In this document: positions 1,815-24,332 of the stretch, piece by piece
Numbering within the stretch: position 1 is the first letter of the stretch
How the letters are laid out: the number at the start of each line of letters is the position of its first letter
Source: Chytriomyces cf. hyalinus JEL632
Taxonomy: Eukaryota > Chytridiomycota > Chytridiomycetes > Chytridiales > Chytriomycetaceae
Assembly (NCBI GenBank): GCA_025435555.1
Contig: JAIWWG010000180.1
Span: 1-24,332 of the forward strand
Direction of reading: 5' to 3'
Length of the DNA stretch: 24,332 nt
The notes under the pieces: model-generated
The model's database searches: none
The model's input: the letters and a program-made list of their open reading frames with translations, nothing else
What the model was told of the DNA's origin: nothing
Made by a program: the position numbers and the translations under genes

Positions 1815-2274
1815 TGTTGAATTCAGTCGTAGGATGCGTAATTCTTTATTTACACATTGCCAATCTTAATTATTTCTTTACGATCACTCATCTTTCTTCT
1901 GGATGTTTTTCAGTCTCTGTCTTTTCATCCAATCATTTTATTTGATAGTTGTTTTACAAGCTACCTCTTTGTTCTGTTTTTTTTCTGATTCACACAATGG
2001 GTCACTTGACCATTGTTCTTAGTGTTTCGTATATGATATCTGCTTCTCCCTTGAGAACAGATCTTTATCTTCTACTATTTGCTCTCTGTTGCAGTATTGT
2101 TCTTATCGACTGTGTATATCCTTAGGTTAGCCAGTTATGATACTTCTTCTTTCTTACGCTAATAGTTGTATGATTCCTTAGTTGATATATTAAAGAGTAG
2201 TAACTATCGATACAAGCTTTAAGAACTTCACGAAGATCGCTATATAGTCATGTTCCAGCGCCTATATTTCTACA
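1815..2274 (+). repeat. 5' LTR of element A
   Basis: Starts TGTTGAATTC and ends TATTTCTACA, the TG...CA termini of copia LTRs, about 460 bp. It matches 3902-4359 in reverse and 6174-6589 directly. The LTR should hold the promoter and poly(A) signal. The AT-rich stretch 'ttgatatattaaagagtag' near 2185 could supply core promoter elements, but no TSS can be fixed. Confidence 0.9.
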
Positions 2275-2288
2275 CGTTATCAGCACCA
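2275..2288 (+). other. Primer-binding site complementary to the tRNA-Ile(IAU) anticodon arm
   Basis: The sequence cgttatcagcacca abuts the LTR end. Its complement, tggtgctgataacg, matches the anticodon stem-loop of eukaryotic tRNA-Ile (TGGTGCT-AAT-AACG as I recall it) at every position except the first anticodon base. That base is inosine in the mature tRNA and would be copied as if G, giving the C seen here. A primer ending around tRNA position 39-40 recalls Drosophila copia, which uses the 5' half of initiator tRNA-Met. The same site recurs in reverse at 3888-3901 and 20067-20080. Confidence 0.65.
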
Positions 2289-2335
2289 TTCTACTTGGAC
2301 GATTCAGTTTTATCAGAATATTTCAAGTTACAACA

Positions 2336-2973
2336 ATGTCAGACGATTCATACAAAGGACTTCCTGTCTTTGATGCAACGACTGAAAACTGGCCACTATT
2401 TTATCTGAAAGTTCGTCTCTACTTGGAGTCGAAGGATCTTCTATATATTATCACTCGTGACCGAGACGATCTACCTGTTGCTGGGGAATCAGCTGATCAG
2501 AAATCTCAACGTGTCAAGGAGGCCAGCACAAGAGCTAAAGACGATGTTAAAGTCAGAAGTCTCTTAGTCAACAAATTCTCGTCTGAGGCAGCCAATATGG
2601 TTGGCCGTGAGCCTTCAGCATTTTTAATGGTAAAAATTCTGGGTGAAAATTTTCAAAGTCAGTCAGCAAACTCAGTTCTAATTCGGCTGGACAAATTATT
2701 TGAGATCAAGTATGACTCTTCCAAGTCTATGTCGTCTCATATTTCAACCATCAATGCGTCAATTCAATCTTTGAAGGAATCTGGCGAACTTGATTGGGAT
2801 AAACTACATCAAGTAGTTCTGTTACGGTCGATCCCTCGTACTACTGAGTGGAATCCGATTACCAGTTCTCTCAAAACTATGGAGAGTGGTTTAACCAAGG
2901 AGAAAATTATTTGAACGTTGCTTGAAGCGGAAATCGATTCGAAATCCCAAGGAATGGGTCCACGGGAAAAATC
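2336..2973 (+). pseudogene. gag of element A, plus-strand copy, premature stop
   Basis: Encodes the capsid-like Gag that packages element RNA. The start MSDDSYKGLPVFDATTENWP and the following 'W..F..K.R.YLE' pattern are typical of copia Gag (UBN2-like fold). The ATG at 2336 lies 61 nt after the LTR. The reading frame ends at a TGA at 2912-2914, where the inverted copy has CGA (Arg), a single C-to-T change. Gag homology continues to 2973 and then meets the reversed LTR fragment. The C-terminal CCHC zinc knuckle is absent. Confidence 0.85.
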
Positions 2974-3185
2974 TGTAGAAATATAGACGCTGGCACGACT
3001 ATATAGCGATCGTCTTAGAAGTTCTTAAAGCTCGTATCGATAGTAACTACTCTTTTAATAGATCAACTAAAGACTCCACTATTAGCACAATAAACTAAGA
3101 AAGAATGTCGTAGCATGCAAACCTAAAGATATACGCAGTCGGTAAGAACAATACTGCAACAGAGCACAAAATAGTAGACGATAAG
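2974..3185 (-). repeat. Partial, diverged family-A LTR in reverse orientation
   Basis: Reads tgtagaaatatag... and reverse-matches the last ~210 bp of the family LTR, with many substitutions relative to the 1815 and 3902 copies. It most resembles the LTR piece at 24165-24332, so it belongs to a second LTR subfamily. It forms the loop of the large inverted repeat. Read on the minus strand it could be the remaining 3' LTR of a mini-element whose 5' LTR is 4359-3902. Its inner edge within about 3185-3200 is imprecise. Confidence 0.75.
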
Positions 3186-3840
3186 CTGTAGAACTTTTCT
3201 GAGATTTTTCCCGTGGACCCATTCCTTGGGATTTCGAATCGATTTCCGCTTCAAGCAACGTTCGAATAATTTTCTCCTTGGTTAAACCACTCTCCATAGT
3301 TTTGAGAGAACTGGTAATCGGATTCCACTCAGTAGTACGAGGGATCGACCGTAACAGAACTACTTGATGTAGTTTATCCCAATCAAGTTCGCCAGATTCC
3401 TTCAAAGATTGAATTGACGCGTTGATGGTTGAAATATGAGACGACATAGACTTGGAAGAGTCATACTTGATCTCAAATAATTTGTCCAGCCGAATTAGAA
3501 CTGAGTTCGCTGACTGACTTTGAAAATTTTCACCCAGAATTTTTACCATTAAAAATGCTGAAGGCTCACGGCCAACCATATTGGCTGCCTCAGACGAGAA
3601 TTTGTTGACTAAGAGACTTCTGACTTTAACATCGTCTTTAGCTCTTGTACTGGCCTCCTTGACACGTTGAGATTTCTGATCAGCTGATTCCCCAGCAACA
3701 GGTAGATCGTCTCGGTCACGAGTGATAATATATAGAAGATCCTTCGACTCCAAGTAGAGACGAACTTTCAGATAAAATAGTGGCCAGTTTTCAGTCGTTG
3801 CATCAAAGACAGGAAGTCCTTTGTATGAATCGTCTGACAT
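3082..3840 (-). CDS. gag of element A, inverted copy (longer open frame)
   Basis: Identical in its first ~190 residues to the plus-strand gag at 2336, apart from very few base differences. It keeps the frame where that copy has a stop: CGA Arg, then 'TLLEAEIDSKSQGMGPREKS'. From about 3199 downward the frame runs out of gag and into the reversed LTR fragment, so roughly the last 45 residues are LTR-derived and not Gag. No zinc knuckle is present. Expression would start from the reversed LTR at 4359-3902. A truncated Gag could act as a dominant interfering capsid protein, as known for yeast Ty1 copy-number control; that role is only an analogy here. Confidence 0.7.
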   Translation of the reverse strand: MSDDSYKGLPVFDATTENWPLFYLKVRLYLESKDLLYIITRDRDDLPVAGESADQKSQRVKEASTRAKDDVKVRSLLVNKFSSEAANMVGREPSAFLMVKILGENFQSQSANSVLIRLDKLFEIKYDSSKSMSSHISTINASIQSLKESGELDWDKLHQVVLLRSIPRTTEWNPITSSLKTMESGLTKEKIIRTLLEAEIDSKSQGMGPREKSQKSSTAYRLLFCALLQYCSYRLRISLGLHATTFFLSLLC

Positions 3841-3887
3841 TGTTGTAACTTGAAATATTCTGATAAAACTGAATCGTCCAAGTAGAA

Positions 3888-3901
3888 TGGTGCTGATAAC
3901 G
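3888..3901 (-). other. Primer-binding site of the inverted copy
   Basis: Exact reverse complement of the site at 2275-2288 (plus-strand reading tggtgctgataacg). It lies directly beside the reversed LTR end at 3902. Confidence 0.65.
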
Positions 3902-4359
3902 TGTAGAAATATAGGCGCTGGAACACGACTATATAGCGATCTTCGTGAAGTTCTTAAAGCTTGTATCGATAGTTACTACTCTTTAATATATCAACTAAGG
4001 AATCATACAACTATTAGCGTAAGAAAGAAGAAGTATCATAACTGGCTAACCTAAGGATATACGCAGTCGATAAGAACAATACTGCAACAGAGAGCAAATA
4101 GTAGAAGATAAAGATCTGTTCTCAAGGGAGAAGCAGATGTCAAATACGAAACACAAAGAACAATGGTCAAGTGACCCATTGTGTGAATCAAAAAAAACAG
4201 AACAAAGAGGTAGCTTGTAAAACAACTATCGAATAAAATGATTGGATGAAAAGACAGAGACTGAAAAACATCCAGAAGAAAGATGAGTGATCGTAAAGAA
4301 ATAATTAAGATTGGCAATGTGTAAATAAAGAATTATGCGTCCTACGACTGAATTCAACA
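3902..4359 (-). repeat. Full-length family-A LTR in reverse orientation
   Basis: About 458 bp, termini TGTAGAAATA...AATTCAACA on the plus strand, i.e. TGTTGAATT...TTTCTACA read in reverse. It is nearly identical to the 5' LTR at 1815-2274. It ends exactly where pol homology begins (4360). There is no 5-bp duplication around 2974-4359 (aaatc versus caacc), so this is not a simple secondary insertion. Confidence 0.9.
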
Positions 4360-6154
4360 CAACCAACGTCAAATTTGTGGAAATCAACATCACTGATCCT
4401 ATAAGTGATCAGGTCGCACCTCAAAATGTCGAATTTTATGGCGACGATATTGAGGATTCTCATGATCAGGAGGAGGTTGTTGATCAGGATGATGTCGAAA
4501 GTGTTGAATCTGAATTCAGTGAACTGGAGGAAGTAGCACCGCCTCGTCAATCATCACGTATTCCTGTACCACGTCAAATTTGTGCTTCATCAAGAAACTC
4601 AGTTCATTATGCTTTTCTATCCAACGGTATCAATGACAAGGACCCATGCATTGTGGAAGCTCGTACTGTTGAAATTAACCAACTCAAGAATTTTGGAGTT
4701 TGGGAACATGTACCGAAATCTAAAGATATGCACGTCATTGGGTGCAGGTTTGTTGATGTACAGAAAAAGGATTCTCAAGGTAATCCTGGTAAATTCAAGT
4801 CTCGATTGGTAGCTCAAGGTTTTACAATGATCGAGGGTGTCGAGTACTTTGACACGTTTGCACCGGTAGCCAGGCCGTATTCAATCAGGATGTTTATGAT
4901 CATGTGCTGTGATCACGATCTGGAGATGTATCAAGCTGACGTACGTAATGCTTTCGTTCAAGCCAAGCTGGATGACGAAGTGTACATGAGGCAACCTCCT
5001 GGATTTGAAGAGTACCCTTTTGGTAAAGATGTACCAACCGTTCTAAAGCTTCTACGGGCATTGTACGGTACAAAGCAAGCTGCTAGAGCGTGGAACAAGA
5101 CGTTTAGCAGTTCATTGAAAGATCTCGGTTTCAAGCCAAGTGTCTTCGACCCATGTATTTTCACACGTGGGAAACTCACGGACAAGGATTTCATCATGTT
5201 GATCCTGATCGTGGACGATTTTCTGTGTGGTATTGCCAGGAGCAACAAGTCTCTCTGGGCCAAGTTCGTTAAGGAGTTATCTGCCAAATTTGAAATCAAG
5301 GATTTAGGTGTAGTGGAACGTTTCGTTGGTATGCAAGTCATGAGGGACGAGTCTCGGATCTATCTATCACAGAAGCCATCTCTGGGTGAGATGCTAACTC
5401 ATTTTGGTATGACGGAAGCTACTACAAGGGAAATGCCAATGGTAGGCACTCCAGTAGCACCTTCAGATGACAACGACACCACAACACAACCTTACAGGAG
5501 TCTCATTGGATGTCTCTTGTACCCTACTCAATGGACAAGACCAGACCTAGCCTTTGCTGTTGGTAGTCTTAGTAGATTCAATAATAAGCCAAGTGATGTT
5601 CACTGGAAGCACGCTACCGATGTTTTACGGTACGTTAAACAATCACTGGACCTCTGTCTAGTGTTCACACGGTGCAAGGAGTTCCACCATGTCGGCTACG
5701 CGGATGCTGAATGGTTAACAGACACGATTGACTGTCGTTTCACATACGGCTACATCACGTTCTTGGACTCAAACATTATGCACTGGAAAAGTAAACGATC
5801 TGGAGGAGTTGTAGGTTCAACAACAGCTGCCGAATTGGAGAGCGTCTATATGTGCCTCACTCATATGATCTGGGAACGCGATTTACTCAAGTCTCTGGGA
5901 ATTGTAATGAAGAGGATGAAGATTTTCAATGACAATATGGCCTTGATCAAGATTCTGAACAGCGAAAGGATGCTGGACAGGACTAAGCACATGGCGGTGA
6001 AAATTGAGTTTATTTGTGAGTACATCAACAACAAGAGCTCAACGTGGAACACATCAGCACTACTGAAATGAAGGCTGACATGTTTACAAAGAGTCTTGGC
6101 AAGATTTTGTTCAAGAAGGGAGTGGATGGAATTGGTTTCGTAAGGCATACATGA
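4360..6154 (+). pseudogene. copia pol remnant: linker, reverse transcriptase and RNase H
   Basis: The open frame formally begins at an ATG at 4335 inside the reversed LTR, but pol homology starts at 4360. An acidic linker ('PPRQSSRIPVPRQ') precedes the RT. RT motifs seen: YFDTFAPVAR, ADVRNAFVQAKLDDEVYMRQ, LLRALYGTKQAARAWN, and the catalytic box as LIVDDFL (first residue Ile instead of Tyr, both Asp kept). RNase H motifs: YADAEW, STTAAELESVY, DNMALI and RTKHMAVK. The integrase and protease are missing. The frame ends at 6071. Homology ('VEHISTTEMKADMFTKSL') continues one frame over to a TGA at 6152-6154, which implies one base lost near 6037-6042. RT and RNase H look nearly intact, so the break is young. 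Confidence 0.88.
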
Positions 6155-6163
6155 TTGTACATG

Positions 6164-6589
6164 TGTGGAGGAGTGTTGAATTCAGTCGTAACTTTATTTA
6201 CACATTGCCAATCTTAATTATTTCTTTACGATCACTTTTCATCCAATCATTTTATTTGAAAGTTGTTTTACAAGCTACCTCTTTGTTCTGTTTTTTTCTC
6301 TGATTCACACAATGGGTCACTTGACCATTGTTCTTAGTGTTTCGTATTTGATATCTGCTTCTCCCTTGAGAACAGATCTTTATCTTCTACTATTTGCTCT
6401 CTGTTGCAGTATTGTTCTTATCGACTGTGTATATCCTTAGGTTAGCCAGTTATGATACTTCTTCTTTCTTACGCTAATAGTTGTATGATTCCTTAGTTGA
6501 TATATTAAAGAGTAGTAACTATCGATACAAGCTTTAAGAACTTCACGAAGATCGCTATATAGTCGTGTTCCAGCGCCTATATTTCTACA
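6164..6589 (+). repeat. Polypurine tract and 3' LTR of element A
   Basis: The tract tgtggaggag immediately precedes the LTR start TGTTGAATTC at 6174. The LTR ends TATTTCTACA at 6589. At about 416 bp it is shorter than the 5' LTR: it lacks ~13 bp just after the start and ~35 bp a little further in. Otherwise it is very similar. AAGCG follows. Confidence 0.88.
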
Positions 6590-6922
6590 AAGCGCGCAAA
6601 TGCGCTACGGTGGGGGTGTGGGGGTGCACTGAGAGAGTCCAACAGGGGGGGCACGGATGGTTTCAAACACTTTCTGTGTGGCTTCCTTAAGTGACTGTGG
6701 GGCACTGGCAAGGATGGCAGCACAGAGATTGACAGTGTGGGTGGCGTTGCAGAGTACAGCAAGGCATTTGGCAGCCTGTTCCTGCTGGGTGGGTTTGAGA
6801 GGCTGGCTATCGATGGCGAAAGCAAGAGGGTTGAAGGCGGCAGTGAGGACTTGTTGACTGCACTCTATAAGAACTTTCGCAACATCCACAACCACATCAG
6901 TTGGACAGTACAACTCTATTTT
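6590..6922 (-). pseudogene. Upstream remainder of the interrupted LINE
   Basis: If element A and one AAGCG copy are removed in mind, a minus-strand frame ('LSAPPHPHRSAFARF') runs straight into the frame at 1775 ('VPPTLVPASPEFVR') without a stop. These 333 bp are therefore the other half of the interrupted LINE. Another minus-strand frame from 6943 to 6605 ('DVVVDVAKVLIECSQQVLTA') is open but changes frame near 6630. Neither shows a domain I recognise. The right limit is where the 1.98-kb duplication begins. The bases 6590-6594 are the right AAGCG duplication. Confidence 0.6.
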
Positions 6923-7160
6923 TGATGTTTGAACCAAGTCCATCTAACATGCGCATATGCGTTCTCCAGTTTTCCATTTGGGACGCGTCTATTTGATTTT
7001 TTTTGTTTGGTGGGGTCTAACAAGAGACTTTTTTGTTATCGCTTTTGTTTACCGTGAATTACCGTGATCTCCGAGTCACTTTATTGCTTTGTTATATCTC
7101 TTTTTTTTTGTGTATATTGTTTGCTTTTTTTTTATTTTTGAGCGAATCGGGAGTGTAAAG

Positions 7161-7556
7161 TCAACAGCGGGAGGGAAAAAGAATGCCAAAGAGATGCATC
7201 CTTGTCACAAATACACTGTGTGTTGAGCTTCGAATAATCTGCACAGTTTTAATTTGAAGACCTTTCAGCTTGATTTCACCGTCCATTCTACCAAGAATCT
7301 GCTGCGACTGGGTGCAAAAAAACAAACAAGTCCCATTGTCGTCCAATATTCAGCGACTGTCCCAGAAGCAAACAAATGTCCTCATGTTGACATGCCGTCG
7401 AAAAAAATCCAACATGTGCTTTTGGTTTCGAACTCTGCAACTCTTGGACCCAACCGCGTTTTGATTCGGCACATCGAGTGCAGTGCCTGTCTGTCGCGTC
7501 TGATCAGCGTTTGAAACCGTTTCGATCAAGCGCCGCCAATCAAATCGAGCACTCAA
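7161..7556 (-). pseudogene. Remnant resembling the A7-A8 region of an adenylate-forming enzyme
   Basis: A single minus-strand frame from 7556 to 7161 is open except for one TGA. After the stop it reads ILDDNGT, then ILGRMDGEIKLKGLQIKTVQI. The spacing G-R-x-D-x-x-(I)-K-x-x-G-x-x-I matches the A8 core motif of acyl-CoA ligases and NRPS adenylation domains, and the preceding DDNG recalls the loop after A7. The rest of the domain is absent. It ends 27 residues later. An identical copy lies at 13477-13872, and a diverged piece of its 5' part at 20242-20322. The family call is tentative because it rests on one motif. Confidence 0.3.
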
Positions 7557-7567
7557 AATAATTTAAA

Positions 7568-7573
7568 TTTATT
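7568..7573 (-). terminator. Poly(A) signal AATAAA of the second candidate gene (copy 1)
   Basis: On the minus strand AATAAA lies about a dozen bases after the stop of the frame ending GFKFLKEN. This supports that frame as a true gene end. The equivalent in copy 2 is 13884-13889. Confidence 0.45.
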
Positions 7574-7582
7574 CGCAGCCCC

Positions 7583-8082
7583 TCAATTTTCCTTCAAAAA
7601 TTTGAAACCAAACCAGGTTGGCGGAATTCCAGGATGTACCACATCTGGCATTCGGTCAACACGTTTGCAATGGAACAAGTCCATCTGAGTTTGGCCCGTA
7701 TTCAGGGTGACTTGCTTCCATGCGTACTGGCTGGCTTGATGGTGAAAGAAGGGCTTTAGTGTCTTCAGAGGATACGTGCGTATTGTACGATATTCTCTTG
7801 GCTCCGATTGGTAATCGAGAAACGTACTAATCCTCGTCGTTTTGATCGGCTGAAGAAACCGAGGGAGTAGATGCAGATTTCGACGGAGTCCCTGATGCTG
7901 GTGCAGCAGATGCAGCTGCAAAAGGAGTTTGACTCAGCCGGCTTGGGACAGGGCTCGATGCAGCAGCTGGACTGGCGTTCGCTGCTAAATTTGTGGGAAG
8001 AAACAAACGGGTAAGATTGACGATGATGACGGATTCGATGCATTCACAACTAAATGGCTTATTTTCAGACTGTGGGCATGGT
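7583..8082 (-). CDS. Candidate host gene of unknown function downstream of the E2F promoter (exon structure unresolved)
   Basis: Two minus-strand stretches look coding. The first (about 8000-7827) is Ser/Ala/Pro-rich, contains 'TPSKSASTPSVSSADQNDED', and has a candidate splice acceptor with a pyrimidine tract (tttcttcccacaaatttag) at its start. The second (about 7830-7583), in another frame, reads 'QYAWKQVTLNTGQTQMDLF' and ends GIPPTWFGFKFLKEN, followed by AATAAA. The first minus-strand ATG after the promoter is at about 8082. I could not find splice sites that join the pieces in phase, and I recognise no family. The position downstream of a CCAAT/E2F promoter suggests S-phase regulation. A plus-strand reading also exists but is less convincing. 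Confidence 0.35.
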
Positions 8083-8164
8083 TGCTTCAAGAGTGAAGGA
8101 GGTGCAAGCAAAGAACGTTCGAAACGTTCCAGATATTGTGGGTGATGTTGACGTTGGTTTCACC

Positions 8165-8210
8165 TCTCGTCGCGCCAAAGAGAACCGAAGCGCACGCCCT
8201 GCCGATTGGA
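8165..8210 (-). promoter_or_regulatory. CCAAT box plus E2F-like site (promoter of the second candidate gene, copy 1)
   Basis: On the minus strand CCAAT (8209-8205) is followed about 30 bases downstream by CTTTGGCGCGAC, close to the E2F/DP consensus TTTSGCGC. The same block occurs in copy 2 (14481-14526), and a diverged homologue with a perfect TTTTGGCGCGAA lies on the plus strand at 16196-16238. CCAAT+E2F pairs are a known layout of G1/S promoters. Confidence 0.5.
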
Positions 8211-8365
8211 CGATGCAGAAGAGAGCAAGAACGGCGGAGGAAGGAAGGGAAGCGATGAACATCCAATGCCCCTTCCTTTACCAATAAAAAGTGGTGTCAG
8301 TGCAAAAGTGGTTCTGTCATTCTCTCCTTTCACGCATTTGAACCCAATCTCAAACAAGTCGCGCT

Positions 8366-8371
8366 TTTATT
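8366..8371 (-). terminator. Poly(A) signal AATAAA of the KEN-box gene (copy 1)
   Basis: Minus-strand AATAAA about 105 bases downstream of the KEN-box gene stop at 8476. The next promoter starts about 150 bases further, giving a tandem head-to-tail gene pair. Confidence 0.4.
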
Positions 8372-8475
8372 AAACACAATATGAAACAAACTCGATTAAG
8401 CGATGCGAACTTTCCCAAAAAGCCACACGTTTGCCAACTGAAAAAAAACAGGAACTGACAGACTCGATATTAATG

Positions 8476-8975
8476 TCAACGATCCTTATTGTTTGGCAGA
8501 ATGTCTGAAAGAACGTTTGAATATCTCAAAGGCGTTGGTGGCTTTTTTGCCAGGTGTCTCGTATCACCGTAAAAAGCCGATGCAGTCTCAGCCCGCGGAC
8601 GCTTTTGAGCCTTGGATGTTGAAGGGGCATATAATTGATGATGGTCCTTCAAGGGACTACGTGGGTTCAAACTGTGACTCGAGTGGGCGCTGCGTGCACT
8701 GGAACCCAGCTGCGCATCTTTTGCGCTATCACCTTCAGCCACATTGATACGTTCAGGAACTGCATTCTCCTTATCGGTTTCCAAAACATCATCCTCTGCA
8801 GGGAAGTATGCTTGTGAAATTTTGTTCCTTGGAACAGTGATTGTACACGTTTGATTAACGGAATCGGTGAATTGATGCTCAAGATCCTGGTGTATGCATC
8901 AGAACTTTTCCTCACCGCAGCGCATTTCAAAAATCCCATGACGCTGCGTTTGATTGAAGTAGCTGTGAATGACAT
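8476..8975 (-). CDS. Two-exon gene for a small KEN-box protein (copy 1, frame intact)
   Basis: Exon 1 runs from the ATG at 8975 to 8849. An intron of 53 nt (8848-8796, GTGTAC...CCTGCAG) is removed in phase. Exon 2 runs 8795-8476, for about 148 residues. Visible features: DKENAVPE holds a KEN box, the APC/C-Cdh1 degron; RSPLK and PTPLR are minimal CDK phosphorylation sites; 'KAQKRPRAE' is a basic patch that could be a nuclear signal; the C-terminus is NVLSDILPNNKDR. The protein is hydrophilic with no enzyme fold that I recognise. A cell-cycle-regulated, proteolysed nuclear protein is the natural inference. A related C-terminus survives at 20350-20405. The first ~25 codons lie outside the duplicated segment, so the start exon is the least certain part. 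Confidence 0.5.
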
Positions 8976-8994
8976 TGAGTCATCAGTTGATCAA

Positions 8995-9992
8995 GCCAAC
9001 ATCATGGAAGCAAGGAGGCCAAGAGGCACTCACGCGTTTTCAGCTACAGCCAAGAACCCACAGTCGATCAGAGAGGGGATGGAGGGGGACGACGTAGCGA
9101 GATGGAAGGATAATGCACTGGATGAATGGAACTTGTTAGTTGAGAATGGGACACGGGAAGGAATTGACTCAAGGAAGCAACCTACCGAAAATATGGCAGA
9201 CAGTAAGTCGGCACACGAGGGCAAGCAAGAGGCTACCGGAGAAATGGAGGAGCACAAGCCCCGACTGGTGGATACCCAGGTGGAAGAAGTGGAATATCAC
9301 GAAACCTATGCACCGGTGGCAAGATCTACAACAGTTGAAGTATTGAAAAGCATTTTGTTAGCAAAGGACGACCAGATCACGCAAATGGGCAATGTGACAG
9401 CTTACCTGCATTCGAAAATGGAAAGCAACATCAGGATTCGGATCCTGGAAGGATATAAGCTACTGGACCAGCAGACGGACAGGAACCAAGAAGGGTTGAA
9501 ACTCTCGAAAGGATTACACGCGACTAGACAAGGCGGTGACCTGTGGAAGAAGGAGTTCAACAGATTCAAGCACTTAGCATCAGATCCGGGATCGTTCAGA
9601 ATACATCGAAGGGGGAGCAAAATGCAAAGCACCTCAGGTGAGGAGGATGTCTTGATCACGACGGAAAATGAGGACCTGGGCAGAGGCGCAGACAGAGCCA
9701 GTGGCCAAGTAGAGTTCATCAGCAGAAATTGCGTGGATTGGAGATCAAGGAAGCAGAACAATGTAGCACTGTCATCAATGGAGGGAGTAGTGGAAGCATT
9801 AGTAGATGCCGACAAGGAGGCATTACGGAAAAAGAGCTACTCACCAAATTTGGTGCTTCAGGTGTCAAGACAAAGACCTGGGAGGACAACCGAGTAGCCG
9901 CAGCATCAAGCAATGATGCGATCATCAAGACAGGACAAGAAACACGGGAAACTACCAAAGAATGGAATATCAAGTTAGCATTCACCCAATAG
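8995..9992 (+). pseudogene. Element B pol remnant (RT/RNase H), open but catalytically dead
   Basis: One plus-strand frame stays open from upstream of 8995 to 9897. Copia landmarks in order: 'ARWKDNALDEWNLLVENGT', 'YHETYAPVARSTTVEVLK', 'NVTAYLHSKMESNIRIRI', 'LHATRQGGDLWKKEF', 'DPGSFRI'. The catalytic YVDD region is replaced by 'GEEDVLIT'. About 150 residues between RT and RNase H are deleted, joining 'ENEDL' to 'ASGQVEF'. RNase H then reads 'RSRKQNNVALSSMEG'. A frameshift near 9880 moves the last motif ('WEDNRVAAASSNDAI') to the frame ending at 9992. The gene cannot make active RT. Confidence 0.8.
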
Positions 9993-10506: not shown

Positions 10507-11267
10507 TGAGTCGGTCTTGTTTGAAACGCGTGGCTGTTTTTCGTTATCTTTGTTTTGTTTTGTATTGTTTTCTTTTTGGAAGTATCTTTTGTGAGAATGA
10601 GTTGCTTCAGTTTGATTGATCCTTTCTGAACGAGTATTTTCTGTGGTGTTTCGGTTTCGGTGTTTCGGACGCCGAAATGGCAGCGGTCAACAAAACAAAC
10701 AAATTAGTCCCGAGAAAAAGTTCCAAGAATTCAGCGGTCCAGCATCAGGAAACCAACCCGCCTCAGCACCTCGTCCACATCCACCTCTTCAGCTCATCTG
10801 CTCAGGCCAGCCGTCTTTCTGCTGCGTCCCGTTAACGACACTCGCTTCACTTTGCTTGCTCTCCGCTGCTTCTTCGCTGTCCCCGAGCTGACGACAAGAT
10901 AGCGCATCCGGCGCGTGTCTCAAGTGGAACTGCTCTCCTGTTTAATATATCATCTGTTTAAGGTGCGTTATCAACCTCTGTTTCTTCGCTGTGCCGTGTT
11001 TTCTCTCCCTTTTTGATATGCAATTGCCGTGTTTGCGCGTGTTTTGACATCCATCTAACGCACCGCTTTGTTCTTTCTCTGCGGCGCATTAGACAGTCTC
11101 GGTTATTCCTTTTTTTGCTGCTCGAGGCAACACATACCCAACCCAAGACAAGTCACACGGACGGTTTCTCATCTCCACCCTTTTCACACCTGCACATCGT
11201 GCAAACGGACCCCTTTGTACAAACAACCGTAGCGTGAGTGTTTGTCGTTTCTGAGATGCGTTTGAAG
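10507..11267. other. Intergenic stretch upstream of the cyclin gene, with one weak small ORF
   Basis: No gene that I can support. The best candidate is a plus-strand 52-codon ORF at 10677-10835 (start MAAVNKTNKLVPRKSSK, context gccgaaATGG). It is basic and could be a first exon, but nothing confirms it. The rest is T-rich, contains CT-rich stretches, and probably includes the cyclin promoter and 5' leader. Confidence 0.35.
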
Positions 11268-11331
11268 TTGAGCTAAACGCGACTCAGTGCCTCCCAATGA
11301 ATTGGGAGGCACTGAGTCGCGTTTAGCTCAA
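11268..11331. promoter_or_regulatory. Perfect palindrome (31-bp arms, 2-bp spacer) upstream of the cyclin start
   Basis: Left arm 11268-11298 and right arm 11301-11331 are exact reverse complements around 'ga'. Each arm carries a CCAAT pentamer at the centre side and AAACGCGA (an MCB/E2F-like CGCG core) farther out. The structure ends 49 bp before the predicted ATG. It could be a symmetrical regulatory site, a hairpin in the mRNA leader, or a fold-back artefact. Confidence 0.85.
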
Positions 11332-11380
11332 GTTTCTTTTCTTTTCACTGCGTTCTCATTGCTCTTTGACGCGCACACAG

Positions 11381-13248
11381 ATGTCCGAATCAACACCGAC
11401 CAATGGCAGAGGGCTTGTTGCACCCATGGATGATCTCATTCAAAGTAAATTGAATTGCATGCAACTCTTTAAACAGCTCACTTACTTTTTTCTTTTCTTC
11501 AGAGGTGGCTGTTGCTGATCCCGACGAATTCGATGATGATGAAGCATTGATGGCCCGCGCTAAAAAAATCCGAGAAGAGATGGAGAAGAAGAGTCAACTG
11601 GCATTACCATCGTCGAATTTGCTACTACCTCGTTTGCATGGAGATTCTGTGACGGAATTTCAACCCCAGCAGCAAATACCACAGCAGCCGGCAGCACCAT
11701 TCTCTTTTGGCAACAACATGCGGTATGAGTTTAAAATTGGCACGCCAGCTGGGCGGACATCGTGGCGAGAGACGGCATCAGATTCTCTTGCTAGCTCTCC
11801 TCTTAAATCTGCGTCTCGCAGTCCAGCACCTGCTCGCTTTGGCAATCCCTTCGAAAAGTCTTTTTTTCGACACCAATCAAGGAATGCGGAACTGTTTAAA
11901 ACGGTGGACCAGGACTTTTCTCGGTTGAAACAGAAACTATTGTCAAACGCAAACACCCCCGAGGTGAGATGATTCATTCGGCGGATGTTTGATTCTTTTT
12001 TGACAAGAAGTATTGTTTCAGGGGAAGCGGTCATTGCACTTCCATATGAAGCGGCTTGAATCCTACCAAGAGCGGGACATGTTTGAAAGGGCCATCAGCC
12101 CTTCTCTCTTTAACCAGCCGCAGATTAATGCTCAGTCGAGGGTGATCCTCTGTCAATGGATGAATGAAGTAATTTGATTTTGTTCATTCGCTTGAGCTCC
12201 CTTTCTCTAATACTTCCGCCCCGAACAAGTTTTGTTCCGACAAGCGCTTTCTCCGGTGCACATTCCACCGCGCCATCACAGTACTTGGACGTGTTCTTGG
12301 CGCACGAAAAAAACGTGTCTGTGGACACAGCTCCAAGTGCTTGGTGCGGCCGCGATTTTTTCCGCCGCAAAACTGGAGGTGCGTTTTTCCATTTTCACTT
12401 CTTCTTTCCGTGTCGTTTCTGATTGGAATATGGTTGCCAAAATCAGGAGCCCGAAGCGCTCTCCAAGCACTGGTTCCTGAATTTCGGGGACGACGACCAG
12501 GAAGCGCTTGGGGAGAAGGAAGGGCTTCTCCAGAAGTTCCATTCGAAAATGGTCATGCGGGTACAAACCTTATTTCTTTTCTTATCTGCGTGCTTGAATT
12601 TTTTTGATATTAACCAGTGTTCATTCATGCGTCATTCATTTTCTTTTAACAGCAAGTCGCCATCAAAGCCACGCCGTACGAATGGCTGCAAGTGTTCTTC
12701 CAGCACTTCGAAAGCTGCTCCAAAGCGTTGTCGTCCGAGCAACGCTTGTTTTTCATGACCGTATTGGACGTGGTGGTGCTGGCACCAGAGACTGCCAGCT
12801 ACCCAAGCAGTCTTCTGGCTGCCGCTGTCCTGTTTGCTGGGGGTTCAATGTCTGATGGTGAGAAAAAAATGCTCGTCTGGATTTTTCAACGCTTGTGTGG
12901 CGGCTGACTTAACTTTATTTCACAGAGGATATTACCTTGGCAACAGGATACGCCATCACCGGCGCCGATACGGTCGTTGTTCATATTTACGAAATATGGG
13001 TAGTTCTTACCTTTTCGGGGGCAGCGGAGGCCATGGACGATGCAGCGGAGGCCGTGGACGATGCAGCGGAGGCCGTGGACGATGCAGCGGAGGCCGTGGA
13101 CGATGCAGCCGTGACCGTGGAGGAGGACACGGAACAAGAGGACGACGAGGCAAAACCAACTGCCGCAGTGGTCGTGCCTGAAAGCCAACAGACTGTTGTT
13201 CCGGTCTCTACAGACCACCTGGTACGCAGTGTTATTTCTGATGTTTGA
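11381..13248 (+). CDS. Cyclin E-type G1/S cyclin, seven exons, with two +1 frame breaks
   Basis: A cyclin binds and activates a CDK. Exons: 11381-11444, 11503-11963, 12022-12168, 12230-12378, 12447-12560, 12653-12857, 12926-13248. All introns are GT-AG, 58-92 nt, and all phases fit. The N-terminal ~175 residues are Pro/Ser/Gln-rich with SP sites. The cyclin box begins 'SRVILCQWMNE' (like MRAILLDWLMEV) and continues to 'IFSAAKLE|E', giving the AAKLEE hallmark exactly across intron 4. The second cyclin fold reads 'PYEWLQVFFQHFE', 'YPSSLLAAAVLFAGGSMSD' and 'ATGYAITGADTVVVHIYEIW', matching cyclin E (e.g. SGYQWCDIENCVKWM) from memory. Inside exon 4 the frame must skip one A at 12278 and one at 12327 to keep gap-free cyclin homology. 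The tail is an acidic heptad repeat and PEST-like stretch. The last 10 bases lie in the duplicated segment, so the original 3' end may be lost. Confidence 0.82.
13021..13125 (+). repeat. 21-bp tandem repeat in the cyclin tail (AAEAVDD heptads)
   Basis: Four near-identical copies of a 21-bp unit (13021-13104) and a degenerate fifth (13105-13125) encode seven-residue repeats of the form AAEA(V/M)DD, then 'VEEDTEQEDDEAK'. The length keeps the frame. Such Ala/Asp heptads should form an acidic helix just after the second cyclin fold. Copy number is likely to vary between strains. Confidence 0.85.
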
Positions 13249-13476
13249 ACCAAGTCCATCTAACATGCGCATATGCGTTCTCCAGTTTTCCATTTGGGAC
13301 GCGTCTATTTGATTTTTTTTGTTTGGTGGGGTCTAACAAGAGACTTTTTTGTTATCGCTTTTGTTTACCGTGAATTACCGTGATCTCCGAGTCACTTTAT
13401 TGCTTTGTTATATCTCTTTTTTTTTGTGTATATTGTTTGCTTTTTTTTTATTTTTGAGCGAATCGGGAGTGTAAAG

Positions 13477-13872
13477 TCAACAGCGGGAGGGAAAAAGAAT
13501 GCCAAAGAGATGCATCCTTGTCACAAATACACTGTGTGTTGAGCTTCGAATAATCTGCACAGTTTTAATTTGAAGACCTTTCAGCTTGATTTCACCGTCC
13601 ATTCTACCAAGAATCTGCTGCGACTGGGTGCAAAAAAACAAACAAGTCCCATTGTCGTCCAATATTCAGCGACTGTCCCAGAAGCAAACAAATGTCCTCA
13701 TGTTGACATGCCGTCGAAAAAAATCCAACATGTGCTTTTGGTTTCGAACTCTGCAACTCTTGGACCCAACCGCGTTTTGATTCGGCACATCGAGTGCAGT
13801 GCCTGTCTGTCGCGTCTGATCAGCGTTTGAAACCGTTTCGATCAAGCGCCGCCAATCAAATCGAGCACTCAA
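13477..13872 (-). pseudogene. Adenylation-like remnant, copy 2
   Basis: Identical to 7161-7556, including the internal TGA and the GRMDGEIKLKG motif. Confidence 0.3.
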
Positions 13873-13898
13873 AATAATTTAAATTTATTCGCAGCCCC

Positions 13899-14398
13899 TC
13901 AATTTTCCTTCAAAAATTTGAAACCAAACCAGGTTGGCGGAATTCCAGGATGTACCACATCTGGCATTCGGTCAACACGTTTGCAATGGAACAAGTCCAT
14001 CTGAGTTTGGCCCGTATTCAGGGTGACTTGCTTCCATGCGTACTGGCTGGCTTGATGGTGAAAGAAGGGCTTTAGTGTCTTCAGAGGATACGTGCGTATT
14101 GTACGATATTCTCTTGGCTCCGATTGGTAATCGAGAAACGTACTAATCCTCGTCGTTTTGATCGGCTGAAGAAACCGAGGGAGTAGATGCAGATTTCGAC
14201 GGAGTCCCTGATGCTGGTGCAGCAGATGCAGCTGCAAAAGGAGTTTGACTCAGCCGGCTTGGGACAGGGCTCGATGCAGCAGCTGGACTGGCGTTCGCTG
14301 CTAAATTTGTGGGAAGAAACAAACGGGTAAGATTGACGATGATGACGGATTCGATGCATTCACAACTAAATGGCTTATTTTCAGACTGTGGGCATGGT
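13899..14398 (-). CDS. Second candidate host gene, copy 2 (exon structure unresolved)
   Basis: Identical in sequence to 7583-8082: a Ser/Ala/Pro-rich part, then a part ending GFKFLKEN followed by AATAAA at 13884-13889. It lies downstream of the CCAAT/E2F block at 14481-14526. Function unknown. Confidence 0.35.
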
Positions 14399-14480
14399 TG
14401 CTTCAAGAGTGAAGGAGGTGCAAGCAAAGAACGTTCGAAACGTTCCAGATATTGTGGGTGATGTTGACGTTGGTTTCACC

Positions 14481-14526
14481 TCTCGTCGCGCCAAAGAGAA
14501 CCGAAGCGCACGCCCTGCCGATTGGA
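14481..14526 (-). promoter_or_regulatory. CCAAT box plus E2F-like site, copy 2
   Basis: CCAAT on the minus strand at 14525-14521 and CTTTGGCGCGAC about 30 bases downstream, same as copy 1. Confidence 0.5.
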
Positions 14527-14791
14527 CGATGCAGAAGAGAGCAAGAACGGCGGAGGAAGGAAGGGAAGCGATGAACATCCAATGCCCCTTCCTTTACCAA
14601 TAAAAAGTGGTGTCAGTGCAAAAGTGGTTCTGTCATTCTCTCCTTTCACGCATTTGAACCCAATCTCAAACAAGTCGCGCTTTTATTAAACACAATATGA
14701 AACAAACTCGATTAAGCGATGCGAACTTTCCCAAAAAGCCACACGTTTGCCAACTGAAAAAAAACAGGAACTGACAGACTCGATATTAATG

Positions 14792-15230
14792 TCAACGATC
14801 CTTATTGTTTGGCAGAATGTCTGAAAGAACGTTTGAATATCTCAAAGGCGTTGGTGGCTTTTTTGCCAGGTGTCTCGTATCACCGTAAAAAGCCGATGCA
14901 GTCTCAGCCCGCGGACGCTTTTGAGCCTTGGATGTTGAAGGGGCATATAATTGATGATGGTCCTTCAAGGGACTACGTGGGTTCAAACTGTGACTCGAGT
15001 GGGCCGCTGCGTGCACTGGAACCCAGCTGCGCATCTTTTGCGCTATCACCTTCAGCCACATTGATACGTTCAGGAACTGCATTCTCCTTATCGGTTTCCA
15101 AAACATCATCCTCTGCAGGGAAGTATGCTTGTGAAATTTTGTTCCTTGGAACAGTGATTGTACACGGTTTGATTAACGGAATCGGTGAATTGATGCTCAA
15201 GATCCTGATGTATGCATCAAGATTGAATAA
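14792..15230 (-). pseudogene. KEN-box gene, copy 2, with two single-base insertions
   Basis: Same stop (14792), KEN box and CDK-type sites as copy 1. An extra C (minus strand G) near 15005 shifts the frame between the KEN box and the RSPLK site. An extra base at about 15166, right at the splice donor (AAACC|GTGTAC instead of AAAC|GTGTAC), upsets the exon phase. Both insertions would have to be absent for the protein of copy 1 to be made. Upstream, 'DAYIRILSINSPIPLIK' is kept, but no ATG is seen in frame, so its first exon is missing or different. Either a pseudogene or an assembly problem. Confidence 0.55.
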
Positions 15231-16625: not shown

Positions 16626-16753
16626 TATTGAGATATGTGTGGAAAGAGTATTGTTTATTGTTGAATACACATACTCGTGAAAAATGAAATCATTGTGGCA
16701 CAGTCGAACAACTGACGGTGCCCCATAGCTGGGGGTTCCAACACTCCCCTACC
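16626..16753 (-). repeat. 3' LTR of element C and its polypurine tract
   Basis: The LTR is 16626-16743 (118 bp, minus-strand start TGTTGGAACC, end TCTCAATA). The purine tract ggtaggggag occupies 16753-16744. Compared with the 161-bp 5' LTR it lacks about 40 bp in two blocks. Confidence 0.85.
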
Positions 16754-18304
16754 CGGCGACGCTGTACACCAACCCCATCCTGATTCTGAATTTCTTGAAT
16801 TCGCTTGGTCCTTTCGCCTTGGTGAGTCCATCTGCTTTTTGGTCTTTAGTTGGGATGAATGCCAACTTGATGTTGCACTCCTTAATAGTTTCTCGTATGA
16901 TCGTGTCTTACCGAGCATATGTCTCGTATGGTCGTTTACGATCGCGTTCTTGCTTGACGCGATGGCCGCTTGGTTGTCCTCGTAAATGACAGTCTTAATA
17001 GCTGAAACACCCAAGTCAGTAAGTAGCTCCCTTAGCCACATGACTTCCTTTATGACATCCACTAACGCATTCACTTCAGCTTCCATGGATGATAGCGCTA
17101 CAGTTTTCTGTTTCCAAGACCTCCAAGTGACAAGGTTCCCTCCAACGAATATGGCGTGGCCACTTACCCCATATGCTCCTTCACTCAAGTGGCTAGCATC
17201 AACCCACGCCTTGATCAAGTTTTCTTTGCCGGCAGTGTACTTGAGTTCCATCTTGCTAGTATTCACCAAGTATCCAGTCAGCCGCTTCAGTGCTGTACAA
17301 TGTGCTTCTGTTGCCTTTGATGCAAATCTTCCCAGGTTGGCTGTTGCATACACTACGTCTGGTCTGGTTGACACTGACACATACATTACAGCTCCTAATA
17401 GGCGTCGATATTGCTCCATGGTTGACTCTGTTTCCTCATCTGGTAGCTTGATCCCAGCCTCTAATGGCGTCGTGTACTTTGTATGCTCTAGTTGGTACTG
17501 CTGTCCAATTGATTCCAAATAGCTTGATTGCTGGAAGTTCGCACATCTGTCCTTCAAGTCATATTTGATGACTGATCCAAGTAAGGTGTGTATCTCCCCC
17601 ATAAACTTGACTTTGTACTTCTTAACCAACTGGTTCTCCACCCACTTTTACAGGTCTTCATTGTCTGTTGCGATCAAGATGTCATCCATGAGCAAGGTGA
17701 TTAGCAGTTCACTCCCGTTCCGCTGGATTCTGAATAGTCCAGGGTCAGATACTGCTTGTTTGAATCCAACACTGACTGATGTCCCTTTGAACTCCTCATT
17801 CCACAGGTAGCCTCCTTGTTTGGTTCCATATAAACCCTTCAAGAGCCTCAATGCATGCCGTTTCCAATCAATCTGTGGATCCAATAGCTCATAGCCATCT
17901 GGAATTCGGATTACTACATTGTAATCCATCTTTGAATTAAGGTAAGCAGTTACGACATCCATCTGGGTGATTCGATATTGCTTTGCTCACGAAATGCTTG
18001 TCAACACTTTGATTGTTGTAGATTGTACAACTGGTGCAAATGTTTCATCGTAGTCCACTCCTTCGACTTGAGTGAATCCTCAAACAACTAGTCGCGATTT
18101 GTATTTCTTGAATACTCCTGCCGTGTCCTGTTTTTGCTTGTGGACCCATTTAGTGTCTGCAATGTTCTCAGTAGGCTCCTTTCTTAAGTCAATCACTTCC
18201 CAGGTCCTGTTCTCAACTAATGAATTCAGTTCATCCAGGATTGCATCCTTCCATTTTGGTGCATTGTCCCTCTTGAGTGCTTTTGGATCCTCAGTTGTTG
18301 CCAA
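16754..18304 (-). pseudogene. Element C reverse transcriptase and RNase H, broken
   Basis: Minus strand. 18304-18080 encodes the pre-RT region ('APKWKDAILDELNSLVENRTW'), stops, and resumes at 17962 with 'VVTAYLNSKMDYNVVIRI' and 'LYGTKQGGYLWNEEF'. The catalytic box reads LLMDDILIAT (Tyr-Val changed to Leu-Met, both Asp kept). A TAA at about 17647 follows 'ATDNEDL'. Then 17641 onward gives the connection domain and RNase H: 'RPDVVYATANLGRF', 'WVDASHLSEGAYG', 'TVALSSMEAEVNALVD', 'YEDNQAAIASS', 'DHTRHM'. Near the C-terminus a frameshift replaces the usual end with LTR-proximal reading. At least three lesions. Confidence 0.88.
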
Positions 18305-20405: not shown

Positions 20406-20618
20406 TGTTGAATTTGTAGTAAAGGATAGTGTTTATTGTGGTGCAACCTTGACTTTAAATACTTGTAAATAAAGATGAAACAATAAATGTTAATTCCTTG
20501 GTGGCACGTAATTCCATATTCCGTTCCAAATAATTCACTAACAAACAACTGGAACCACTCAATGACGCAGATGAGGCCATCACGCCACTGAGGTTGGGGA
20601 ATCCAATACTACCCCTAC
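20406..20618 (-). repeat. 3' LTR of element D and purine tract
   Basis: Minus-strand start TATTGGATTCCCC (TG changed to TA) and end ATTCAACA, about 203 bp, preceded by ggtaggggtag. The left limit is inferred from the CAACA terminus shared with element B and from where KEN-gene homology stops. Confidence 0.65.
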
Positions 20619-22200
20619 CTGACCACGGCTTGAACATTGACCGCGTCTCGGAATCGCTCGAACTCTCCCGGGCCTTTGGCTTTCGTAAGTCTGTCTGCTT
20701 TCAGTTCTTTGGTTGGTGTGAACACTGACTGGATCTTATGCTCTTTCAGGGTCTCTCGCACAAATGTTGTTTTCGCTAGAATGTGATGCATCTGATTGTT
20801 GACTACTGCATGCTTGCTTGACGCTATTGCTGCTTGGTTATCCTCGTATATTGTGCTTTTGATGCCTGTGATTCCCAAGTCGGTGAGTAGTTCCTTGATC
20901 CAAACCACTTCCTTGATCACGTCAACTAACGCATTCACCTCTGATTCCATTGACAACAGTGCCACTGTTTGCTGTTTCCTGGATTGCCAGCTCACCAAGT
21001 TTCCCACCGCGTAAACTGCTTGTTCACTGATGCCGTAAGCTCCTTTGCTCAGGTGACTAGCATTGACGCTTCGATTTCTTGTGAATATCCCTTTTTGTAC
21101 TTGAGTTCGAACTGTCTTGTGTTCACCAGGTAGCCTGCCAGCCTGCGAAGTGCCGCCCAGTGTGTTTCAGTTGCGTTAGATGCGAATTGTTCCAAGTAAG
21201 CTGTTGCGTATGCAGTGTCAGGCCTTGTTGAGACTGATGCATACATTATTGCCCCCAACAGGCTTCTGTACTCGACTGCTAGTGGGCCATCAACTTCTTC
21301 TGGTAACTTCATCCCTAGTTCCATTGGTGTTCGCCACTTGGTGTTTTCTAACTGGTATCTTGACCCAATTGACTCGATGTAGCTGGTTTGCTGGAAACTT
21401 CCTGTCCTGCTCTTGGCTTGGTACTTGATGACTGAACTGAGTAAGGCATGTACCTCCCCCATAAAAGTGATTTTGTACTTCTTGACCAATTCTCTTCCAC
21501 CCAGAGCCTGAGTTTTTTGTTGTCTGTTGCCACTCGGATATCATCAACTTACAAGGTGATACATAATTCACTCCCCCATTTTTCGATTCTGAATAGTCCA
21601 GGATCTGCTGACGCTTGCTTGAAACCGATGATGATGAGAGTTCCCTTGAATTCTTTGTTGCACAGGTATCTGCCTTGCTTGGTGCTGTAAAGCCCCTTTA
21701 GTAGTCTTAATGCTTGTTCCCTGCAGTTGACATCTGGATCCAGTAGCTCATAGCCTTCTGGGATGCAGATGATGAGGTTGCAGTCCATCTTTGAATTCAG
21801 GTATGCCATTACAACATCGATTTGGGTGATCTTGTAACTGTTTGCAAGTGCGATGCTAATTATGACCTTGATCGTAGTAGTCCTTACTACTGGTGCGAAT
21901 GTCTCATTGTAATCTATCCCCTCAACTTGCGTGAATCCCCGAACTACCAGTCTTGACTTATACTTCTCGAATACCCCGGCTGCATCTTGCTTTTTCTTGT
22001 GGACCCATTTTGTGTCGGCTATGTTTGCACTTGGTTCTTGTCTTGGGTCAATGATTTCCCATGTTCCATTTTCCACCAGTGAGTTGAGCTCATCCTGTAT
22101 TGCGTCCTTCCATTTTGGTGCATTGTCTCTGGCTAGTGCTTCGGCTGTCATTGGTGGGTCTTCCAGGGTTGCTGTAAAAGCATAAGTAGCTTTCCATCTT
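20619..22200 (-). pseudogene. Element D reverse transcriptase and RNase H, broken
   Basis: 22151-21549 encodes 'APKWKDAIQDELNSLVENGTW', 'YNETFAPVVRTTT', 'VVMAYLNSKMDCNLI' and 'LYSTKQGRYLCNKEF'. The catalytic box reads L-stop-VDD: the Tyr codon of YVDD is TAA. 21489-21049 gives 'YRSLLGAIMYASVSTRPDTA' and the connection domain. After a frameshift near 21050, 21007-20615 gives RNase H ('TVALLSMESEVNALVD', 'YEDNQAAIASS', 'TKELKADRLTKAKG'). Inactive. Confidence 0.87.
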
Positions 22201-23160: not shown

Positions 23161-24164
23161 TCAGGCAGGAATGTCACGGCTGTGCGAGGTAAGGAACTCG
23201 GTGAGGGGCAGGAGGCCTATTAAGCAACAGAGTTTTCTGAAGCTGAACTTTTCGAGTGGTTTCGTGAGCAGGTTGGCTCGTTGTTCCTTTGTTCCAATGT
23301 GGTGGATGGCAATCGTGCCGAGCTGGACCAGTTCTCGAATGAAGTGGTAGTGGTGGGCAATGTGTTTCGATTGGTGAGTGTAGATGTCGCTCGTGCATTG
23401 TGCAATTGTTCCTAAGTTGTCTTCAAAGATAGAGATAGGGAGTGCAAGCGGGAGATGGACAGCAGCATGGAGGTTTGTGAAGGTGAGAGTTTCGCATCCA
23501 CTGATGGCCATGTATTCTGCTTCGGTGGATGAGAGTGCGACAGTAGTAGTCTTGGTGGATTTCCAGCTGATGCACCATCAGCAAGGATAACGGTGAGGCC
23601 AAGCTGGGATCTGCCATCTGTGAGGTGAATGTGGAATGCGGCATCAGCATATCTGACGATTTGCGTGATTCCTCTGTTGGAGTAGGAGATCCCTGCATCA
23701 ATCGTGCCAGTGAGGTATTGAAAACCTTGCATGAGTTTGTTCCAGTGTCGATTTGACGGTTTCTGATTATGTGTTGATAGGTAGCTGACTGCAGTGCTTA
23801 TGTCAGGTCTGCAGGAAACTGCGGCGTAGTTGAGGCATCTGGCAGCAGCAAGGTATTCTTTCACATCAGCAGTTTCTTCATCATCTGTAATGGGAATGGT
23901 TTTGGAGTTAGGTTGAAGAGGTACATTTCTTCTTTTCCTGCCATTGGGGTCCCAGTGTTTGCGGAAGCGCTGCAGAATTTCTTTTATGTAGTTCGATTGG
24001 TGAATAAAGAATCCAGACGGATTCCTCACTATCTGAAGACCAACAAATTGCGAGAGTTCTCCCAAGTCGCGAAGCTTGAATTCGGTCTGAAGTGTAGCAA
24101 CGGCTTTGTCACAGGCTTTGGCAGATCCGAACATGGCTAGGTCATCGACGTAGCAGCTCAGGAT
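23161..24164 (-). pseudogene. Element E reverse transcriptase end and RNase H, one frameshift
   Basis: Minus strand from 24164: 'YVDDLAMFGSAKACDKAV' with an intact YVDD, then 'FKLRDLGELSQFVGLQIVRN', 'YIKEILQRF', 'CRPDISTAVSYLS' and RNase H 'VRYADAAF'. After 'DGASAG' near 23570 the frame shifts by one base. In the new frame 'STEAEYMAISG', 'FEDNLGTIAQ' and 'HQSKHIAHHYHFIRE' follow, to a stop near 23161. Apart from the shift, all RNase H acidic residues are present. The N-terminal part is cut off by the LTR at 24165. Confidence 0.87.
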
Positions 24165-24332
24165 TGTAGAAATATAGTCGCTGGTACACAGCTATATGGC
24201 GATCTTCATAACAGTCCTTAAAGCTCGTATCGATAGTAACTACTCTTTTAATAGATCAACTAAAGACTCATTGTTAAATATCAGTCTCAAGTGATGGAGC
24301 ACTGCTTACTTCAATAAAGGTTAATTCTCCCT
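24165..24332 (-). repeat. Family-A LTR (diverged subfamily), reverse orientation, running off the right edge
   Basis: Starts tgtagaaatatag and follows the reversed family-A LTR for about 115 bp, closest to the fragment at 2974-3185 (shared cgtatcgatagtaactactc and aatagatcaactaaagactc). After about 24280 the similarity fades. It interrupts the RT of element E. It may be a solo LTR or the end of an element lying to the right. Confidence 0.72.

Follow-up and report, generated by a model that had tools for sequence, protein, structure and literature searches.

The window analysed here, 24,332 bases in length, is an entire contig (C91) of a 37.8-Mb genome assembly in 242 contigs. It carries an LTR retrotransposon (element A, 1815-6589) that, judged by its gag and RVT_2 matches and its paired TG...CA LTRs with a 5-base target duplication, is of the copia type. 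A second, short element of the same family (mini-element C, 2974-4359) lies antisense within A. The parts of the two elements, with element positions given on the scale of a yardstick family copy (C182), are as follows.

1810-1814: left copy of the target-site duplication AAGCG, directly before the LTR start and repeated at 6590-6594
1815-2274, plus strand: 5' LTR of A, 460 bp, TG...CA, with a three-letter combination in common with the 3' LTR
2275-2973, plus strand: leader and first part of gag of A (PF14223 Retrotran_gag_2, E = 1.4e-12), forming the left arm of an inverted repeat together with the 5' LTR
2973/2974: junction of A gag with the intact U5 tip of an antisense LTR, one match in the genome
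2974-3185, minus strand: 3' part of a subfamily-B LTR (LTR positions 247-460, putative R-U5), 99% identical to the C210 copies and 82% to subfamily A
3183-3185, minus strand: 3-base microhomology CTT where C gag passes into the subfamily-B LTR, one match in the genome
3183-3901, minus strand: gag and leader of C, to element position ~1177, from alignment to family copies
3902-4359, minus strand: complete LTR of C, forming the right arm together with the gag part, with 0 mismatches over 458 bases to the 3' LTR of the C46 copy
4359/4360: junction of the intact U3 tip of C with A pol at ~2705, one match in the genome
4360-6173, plus strand: remaining 3' half of pol of A, with RVT_2 reverse transcriptase (PF07727, E = 1.6e-52)
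6174-6589, plus strand: 3' LTR of A, with two internal deletions identified by LTR comparison
6590-6594: right copy of the target-site duplication AAGCG, pairing with 1810-1814

The target duplication that an earlier, sequence-only reading of this DNA had reported around the larger element is confirmed, with AAGCG on both sides of 1815-6589. A purine-rich tract ends the pol stretch (4360-6173), just before the 3' LTR. Three letters are common to the two LTRs of A; each of them, taken singly, is present in some other LTR matches. Because the combination of the three is found in none of the 32 other LTR matches (31 elsewhere and that of C itself), the outer parts of A very probably represent a single insertion. 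The gag gene of A stops at element position ~1157 (query position 1159), and its pol restarts directly after the tip of C at ~2705, with ~1.55 kb of A absent in between. In addition, the frame at 2336-2914 is cut by a stop that all 10 other tallied gag copies lack. With this stretch missing and its gag interrupted, A is defective. The Gag-like frames comprise 192 residues in A and 252 residues in C, and the suggestion that truncated Gag might interfere with capsids is a guess.

Self-comparison of the window recovers the near-identical reverse-complement arms described earlier as an inverted repeat (1815-2973 and 3203-4359) that is 98.8% complementary over 1161 columns (aligned span 1814-2974 versus 4360-3202). 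The length of this match is far beyond chance, and a repeat search recovers it as two pieces. Each arm opens with a complete, inward-pointing LTR (1815-2274 on the plus strand and 4359-3902 on the minus strand), as had also been claimed. Between the arms there are 12 substitutions, 8 of them in the LTR and 4 in gag, and one 2-base indel. What had been taken for a loop of about 230 bp is indeed a spacer between the arms; it is not unique sequence, however, since 2974-3185 aligns to the last 214 positions of the LTR of a second subfamily and the remaining 17 bases (3186-3202) are further gag of C. The right arm as a duplicate of the left is likewise ruled out. The two gag pieces end differently (~1157 in A and ~1177 in C), and the LTR of C has no mismatch to the C46 LTR, 8 mismatches to that of A, and none of the three-letter combination of A, which indicates that C is a different copy from A.

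Read on the minus strand, C consists of a complete 458-base LTR, the leader, gag to ~1177, and then the subfamily-B LTR from position 247 to its tip. Both outer tips are intact, the U5 tip abutting A gag and the U3 tip abutting A pol. No target duplication is present around C; the five flanking bases are AAATC on the left and CAACC on the right. Searches of the genome with the three junctions of C, allowing up to three mismatches, gave one match each, at this site, and the reversed patterns used as a control gave 0 matches.

The family to which these elements belong is multi-copy, with at least 45 matches to the left arm on many contigs (40 of 67 candidates scored). Six copies were compared at both LTRs. 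Three of them have no LTR difference and matching 5-base flanks, one further copy has matching flanks (four of six in total), and the C182 and C46 copies are without matching flanks. The identical LTRs in three of the six copies checked point to recent movement of the family, while the yardstick copy on C182, itself without a target duplication, indicates that recombined copies exist. Subfamilies A and B have nearly identical U3 and near-identical gag and differ by about 18% in R-U5 and by 5% in pol. The gag of the C176 and C204 copies differs from that of A at 7 of 699 bases, and the C46 copy has a subfamily-B LTR at its 5' end and a subfamily-A LTR at its 3' end. This patchwork suggests template switching between co-packaged RNAs of the two subfamilies.

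Several family copies have unusual surroundings. The C46 and C176 copies have an identical 5' flank over the 85 bases fetched and different 3' flanks, which may reflect a duplication, a recombined copy or a misjoin. In the C46 region 433929-440108, the mixed-LTR copy is bordered by pol and then LTR sequence of a relative, both antisense, with a Piwi-domain match (439689-440108) beyond them. On C210 (601003-607181), a second copy in parallel orientation interrupts a family copy at query position 774-778 and is accompanied by a 5-base duplication.

An assembly artefact, either a fold-back or a misjoin at a repeat, was weighed as a rival. In its favour, the contig is only 24,332 bases long and has a further LTR piece of the family close to its right end, two other contigs (C84 and C107) break off within family copies, and the one-sided flank common to C46 and C176 implies misjoins, duplications or recombined copies in the family. 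A fold-back error, which should give identical arms mirrored at a single point, is nevertheless unlikely on these data, because the arms differ at 12 sites, their gag pieces end at different points, and a third sequence is enclosed between them. Further, the two tip junctions offer only about one base of homology for a misjoin, and the two LTRs of A are linked across the whole structure by their letter combination and target duplication. We therefore regard an assembly artefact of either type as very improbable.

Differences private to each element were tallied against the sampled copies to compare the ages of A and C. Copies with more than 7% mismatches or an alignment below 85% of the length were excluded, leaving 10 gag, 21 LTR, and 12 pol matches. 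The count is 1 private change over 1159 bases for C and 19 over 3390 for A (the latter a recount); three sites were omitted from this count, namely the edge of a 3'-LTR deletion, a site common to the LTRs of A, and a site common to both arms. At the rate of A, 6.15 private changes would be expected in C, and the probability of one or fewer is 0.015 (computed with 18 changes for A, before the recount of 19). Fisher's test on the private changes gives P = 0.06, and a clock based on the differences between the two LTRs of A gives P = 0.02 if 4 mismatches are counted and 0.08 if 3 are. CpG transitions account for 8 of the 19 changes in A and 0 of 1 in C; a ninth candidate in pol, which resembles a CpG transition only through a change in its neighbour, was left uncounted. 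Such transitions fit the 11 DNA methylase matches in the genome. A single gag variant is carried by both arms and is missing from all 10 remaining gag copies in the tally, a hint that the arms are more closely related or have undergone gene conversion with each other. Taken at face value, the counts moderately favour C being younger than A.

What the sequence shows directly is the anatomy: the three junctions, parents from two subfamilies, a stretch of A that is missing, and a target duplication flanking A. From this we infer a route of reverse transcription, a route of joining, and an order in which A came first and C later. Our preferred explanation, held with moderate confidence, is that C is a defective chimeric mini-copy that inserted antisense into an older family member, A, with the loss of ~1.55 kb of A. 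C probably formed in a virus-like particle containing RNAs of both subfamilies. Minus-strand strong-stop DNA of subfamily B (R-U5) would have jumped to gag at the 3-base match and not to the 3' R region. Synthesis would then have continued across gag, the leader, and the 5' R, after which the usual jump and plus-strand priming at the purine tract would have produced a short double-stranded cDNA, intact at both LTR tips. This chain of a strong-stop jump, a second jump, and plus-strand priming follows the standard scheme of LTR reverse transcription. The subfamily-B piece begins at LTR position 247, 29 bases below a TATA-like word at position 218, and a position below this word could be the transcript start and hence the start of R. 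If position 247 is approximately the first base of the RNA, the subfamily-B piece is what minus-strand strong-stop DNA copies. The start site is putative, since there are four TATA-like words in this LTR and the 29-base distance is a post-hoc fit. The tips of the resulting cDNA would have joined A gag and A pol separately. Two half-site integrations that were not paired, or capture of the cDNA at a double-strand break, could each account for this; in both cases the tips would stay intact, part of the target would be lost, and no target duplication would arise. The inversion appears to have come about by accident during reverse transcription and insertion, and each of its junctions was found at one place only. 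Against this explanation, it requires two unusual steps in succession, and another recombination history is possible.

A rival explanation begins with a full-length mosaic, with a subfamily-A LTR at one end and a subfamily-B LTR at the other, inserted antisense in A; its middle (from gag to position 247 of the subfamily-B LTR) and part of A would have been deleted later. A copy with mixed LTRs does exist on C46, and the 3-base microhomology at the inner junction is of the kind that end joining can leave. As a precedent the C46 copy is weakened by the flank in common with C176, so it may itself be recombined or misjoined. Against this explanation, one deletion would have had to stop exactly at the U3 tip of C, the other would have needed a chance end point 29 bases below a TATA-like word, and the absent target duplication requires an additional event. 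We found no second instance of the chimeric inner junction, outside of A, elsewhere in the assembly. Deletion after integration is considered unlikely.

The exact LTR tips at both joints with A, a sister element, and the target duplication carried by A as a whole are also consistent with autointegration, in which the ends of C attacked the cDNA of A inside the particle and the chimera then integrated as one unit with the AAGCG duplication. Autointegration of Ty1 and retroviruses can reportedly yield inverted products in which an LTR tip is joined into the interior of its own kind (PMC4751563). The products described there are circles derived from one molecule (PMC4751563), whereas the arms here originate from two copies and are part of an element in a chromosome. 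Concerted autointegration would also be expected to leave 5-base copies on both sides of C, where AAATC and CAACC differ and ~1.55 kb has been lost between them, and C looks younger than A, albeit weakly. We regard this explanation as improbable.

The insertion of a chimeric mini-copy into A resembles two other processes known from LTR elements. According to a preprint, Ty1 cDNA was inserted at double-strand breaks in yeast, with the 3' LTR region as a hotspot and many of the inserts apparently replication intermediates (PMC10802722). The loss of target at C without a target duplication would fit such capture. In this case, however, the target is a family copy, the cDNA would have had both tips and parts of two subfamilies, and only the product is seen. 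Nested Ty1/copia elements also have a copy within a copy of the same family, as in the C210 copy interrupted with a 5-base duplication, but the insert C is antisense, internally deleted, chimeric, and without a target duplication. Literature searches on nested inverted LTR elements and on transposon hairpins with small RNAs gave no clear precedent for the anatomy of A and C among the papers listed.

The arms were expected by the sequence-only reading to give more than 1 kb of double-stranded RNA. A long duplex is indeed predicted, with the computed fold of 2062-4113 reaching -1759.5 kcal/mol and 909 in-register arm-to-arm pairs; this corresponds to -0.857 per base, compared to -0.28 for the pol of A (one control stretch). 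The duplex would be ~0.9 kb and not 1.16 kb, because transcripts from an LTR promoter would omit U3; this hairpin size assumes a transcript start near 2062. A 5'-LTR transcript that reads past ~4112 would fold into this ~0.9-kb duplex, which resident Dicer could cut. Absence of Dicer and Argonaute genes, named earlier as evidence against a silencing role, is not what the genome shows, as Piwi-domain (16), RNase III (6, including two tandem pairs), and RdRP (13) matches are present. These are exon-wise matches rather than gene counts, and some of the silencing-gene matches contain stops. One of the tandem RNase III pairs matches solved chains named Dicer, Dicer-like, or Dcr-1, and the same pair has a PAZ match below the curated cut-off. 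Silencing is thus possible, since the genome has Dicer-type, Piwi, and RdRP genes.

On this basis the locus might act as a source of hairpin RNA, in which read-through or convergent LTR transcription would yield double-stranded RNA whose Dicer products silence the family, along the lines suggested for Mu killer. The inverted arms with inward LTRs, the computed fold, and the Piwi, Dicer-type double RNase III, and RdRP matches are consistent with this proposal. Each junction is present at one genomic place only, though, and the identical LTRs and matching flanks of three of six copies point to recent movement of the family, which is weak evidence against strong silencing. Such movement is at odds with complete silencing by the locus, although silencing that is partial or began recently would be compatible with it. 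A silencing function is therefore doubtful in our estimation, and any silencing effect of the locus is probably minor or absent. The proposal concerns the effect of C and can be compatible with its proposed origin.

The maize locus Mu killer provides the closest parallel. The report on it describes Mu killer as a MuDR element with an internal deletion, one end present twice, and mudrA duplicated in inverted orientation (PMC3440606). The locus described here is similar in having inverted copies of one element end, a missing middle, and the potential for a long hairpin (PMC3440606), and Dicer, Argonaute, and RdRP sequence matches are present in the host. The earlier comparison to the architecture of Mu killer holds for the inward LTRs, the long inverted arms, and the folding potential. 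A difference is that each arm here derives from a separate copy, with a third LTR piece connecting the two. In addition, Mu killer is a plant DNA transposon for which silencing was reported, whereas the present locus is a copia LTR element known from sequence alone. The hairpin step is in dispute for Mu killer as well: plants undergoing silencing are reported to have made short antisense transcripts unable to form large hairpins, although minor longer transcripts might still contribute (PMC3440606). A Mu-killer-like role of the locus is possible. In structural terms it is a rearranged nested copia element, a known kind of structure, with a possible hairpin function.

It is not settled how a new transposon family first comes to be silenced; natural rearrangement of a copy has been put forward as one trigger. 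The locus has an anatomy suited to such a trigger, in a genome with the machinery, and its three single-occurrence junctions would allow transcripts and small RNAs of the locus to be told apart from those of other family members. Its anatomy also provides a readable record of an apparently failed reverse-transcription jump between two subfamilies. The full sequence of events, in which a strong-stop jump gave an integration-competent mini-element whose backwards landing founded a hairpin-RNA locus silencing its own copia family, is considered clearly improbable as a whole; if true, it would be an LTR-retrotransposon counterpart of Mu killer.

Other repeats are present in the remainder of the window. 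A 1.99-kb direct repeat (6917-8901 and 13233-15219) is 99.8% identical between copies spaced 6.3 kb apart and is associated with a copia reverse transcriptase frame at 8851-9897; it may represent the very long terminal repeats of a second element, or else a tandem duplication. Two further stretches (16730-18282 and 20595-22141) are 68% alike, the second overlapping a copia reverse transcriptase frame at 21549-22151 (E = 5e-31). A weaker copia reverse transcriptase match, below the curated cut-off, is located at 23412-24134. An LTR fragment of the family of A and C (24164-24271) lies ~60 bases from the right end of the contig, and this repeat may be what ended the contig. A tandem array of about four copies of a 21-base unit (13021-13125) is contained in an open frame on the minus strand (12886-13293), and a 70-base near-perfect palindrome (94%) is present at 11265-11334.
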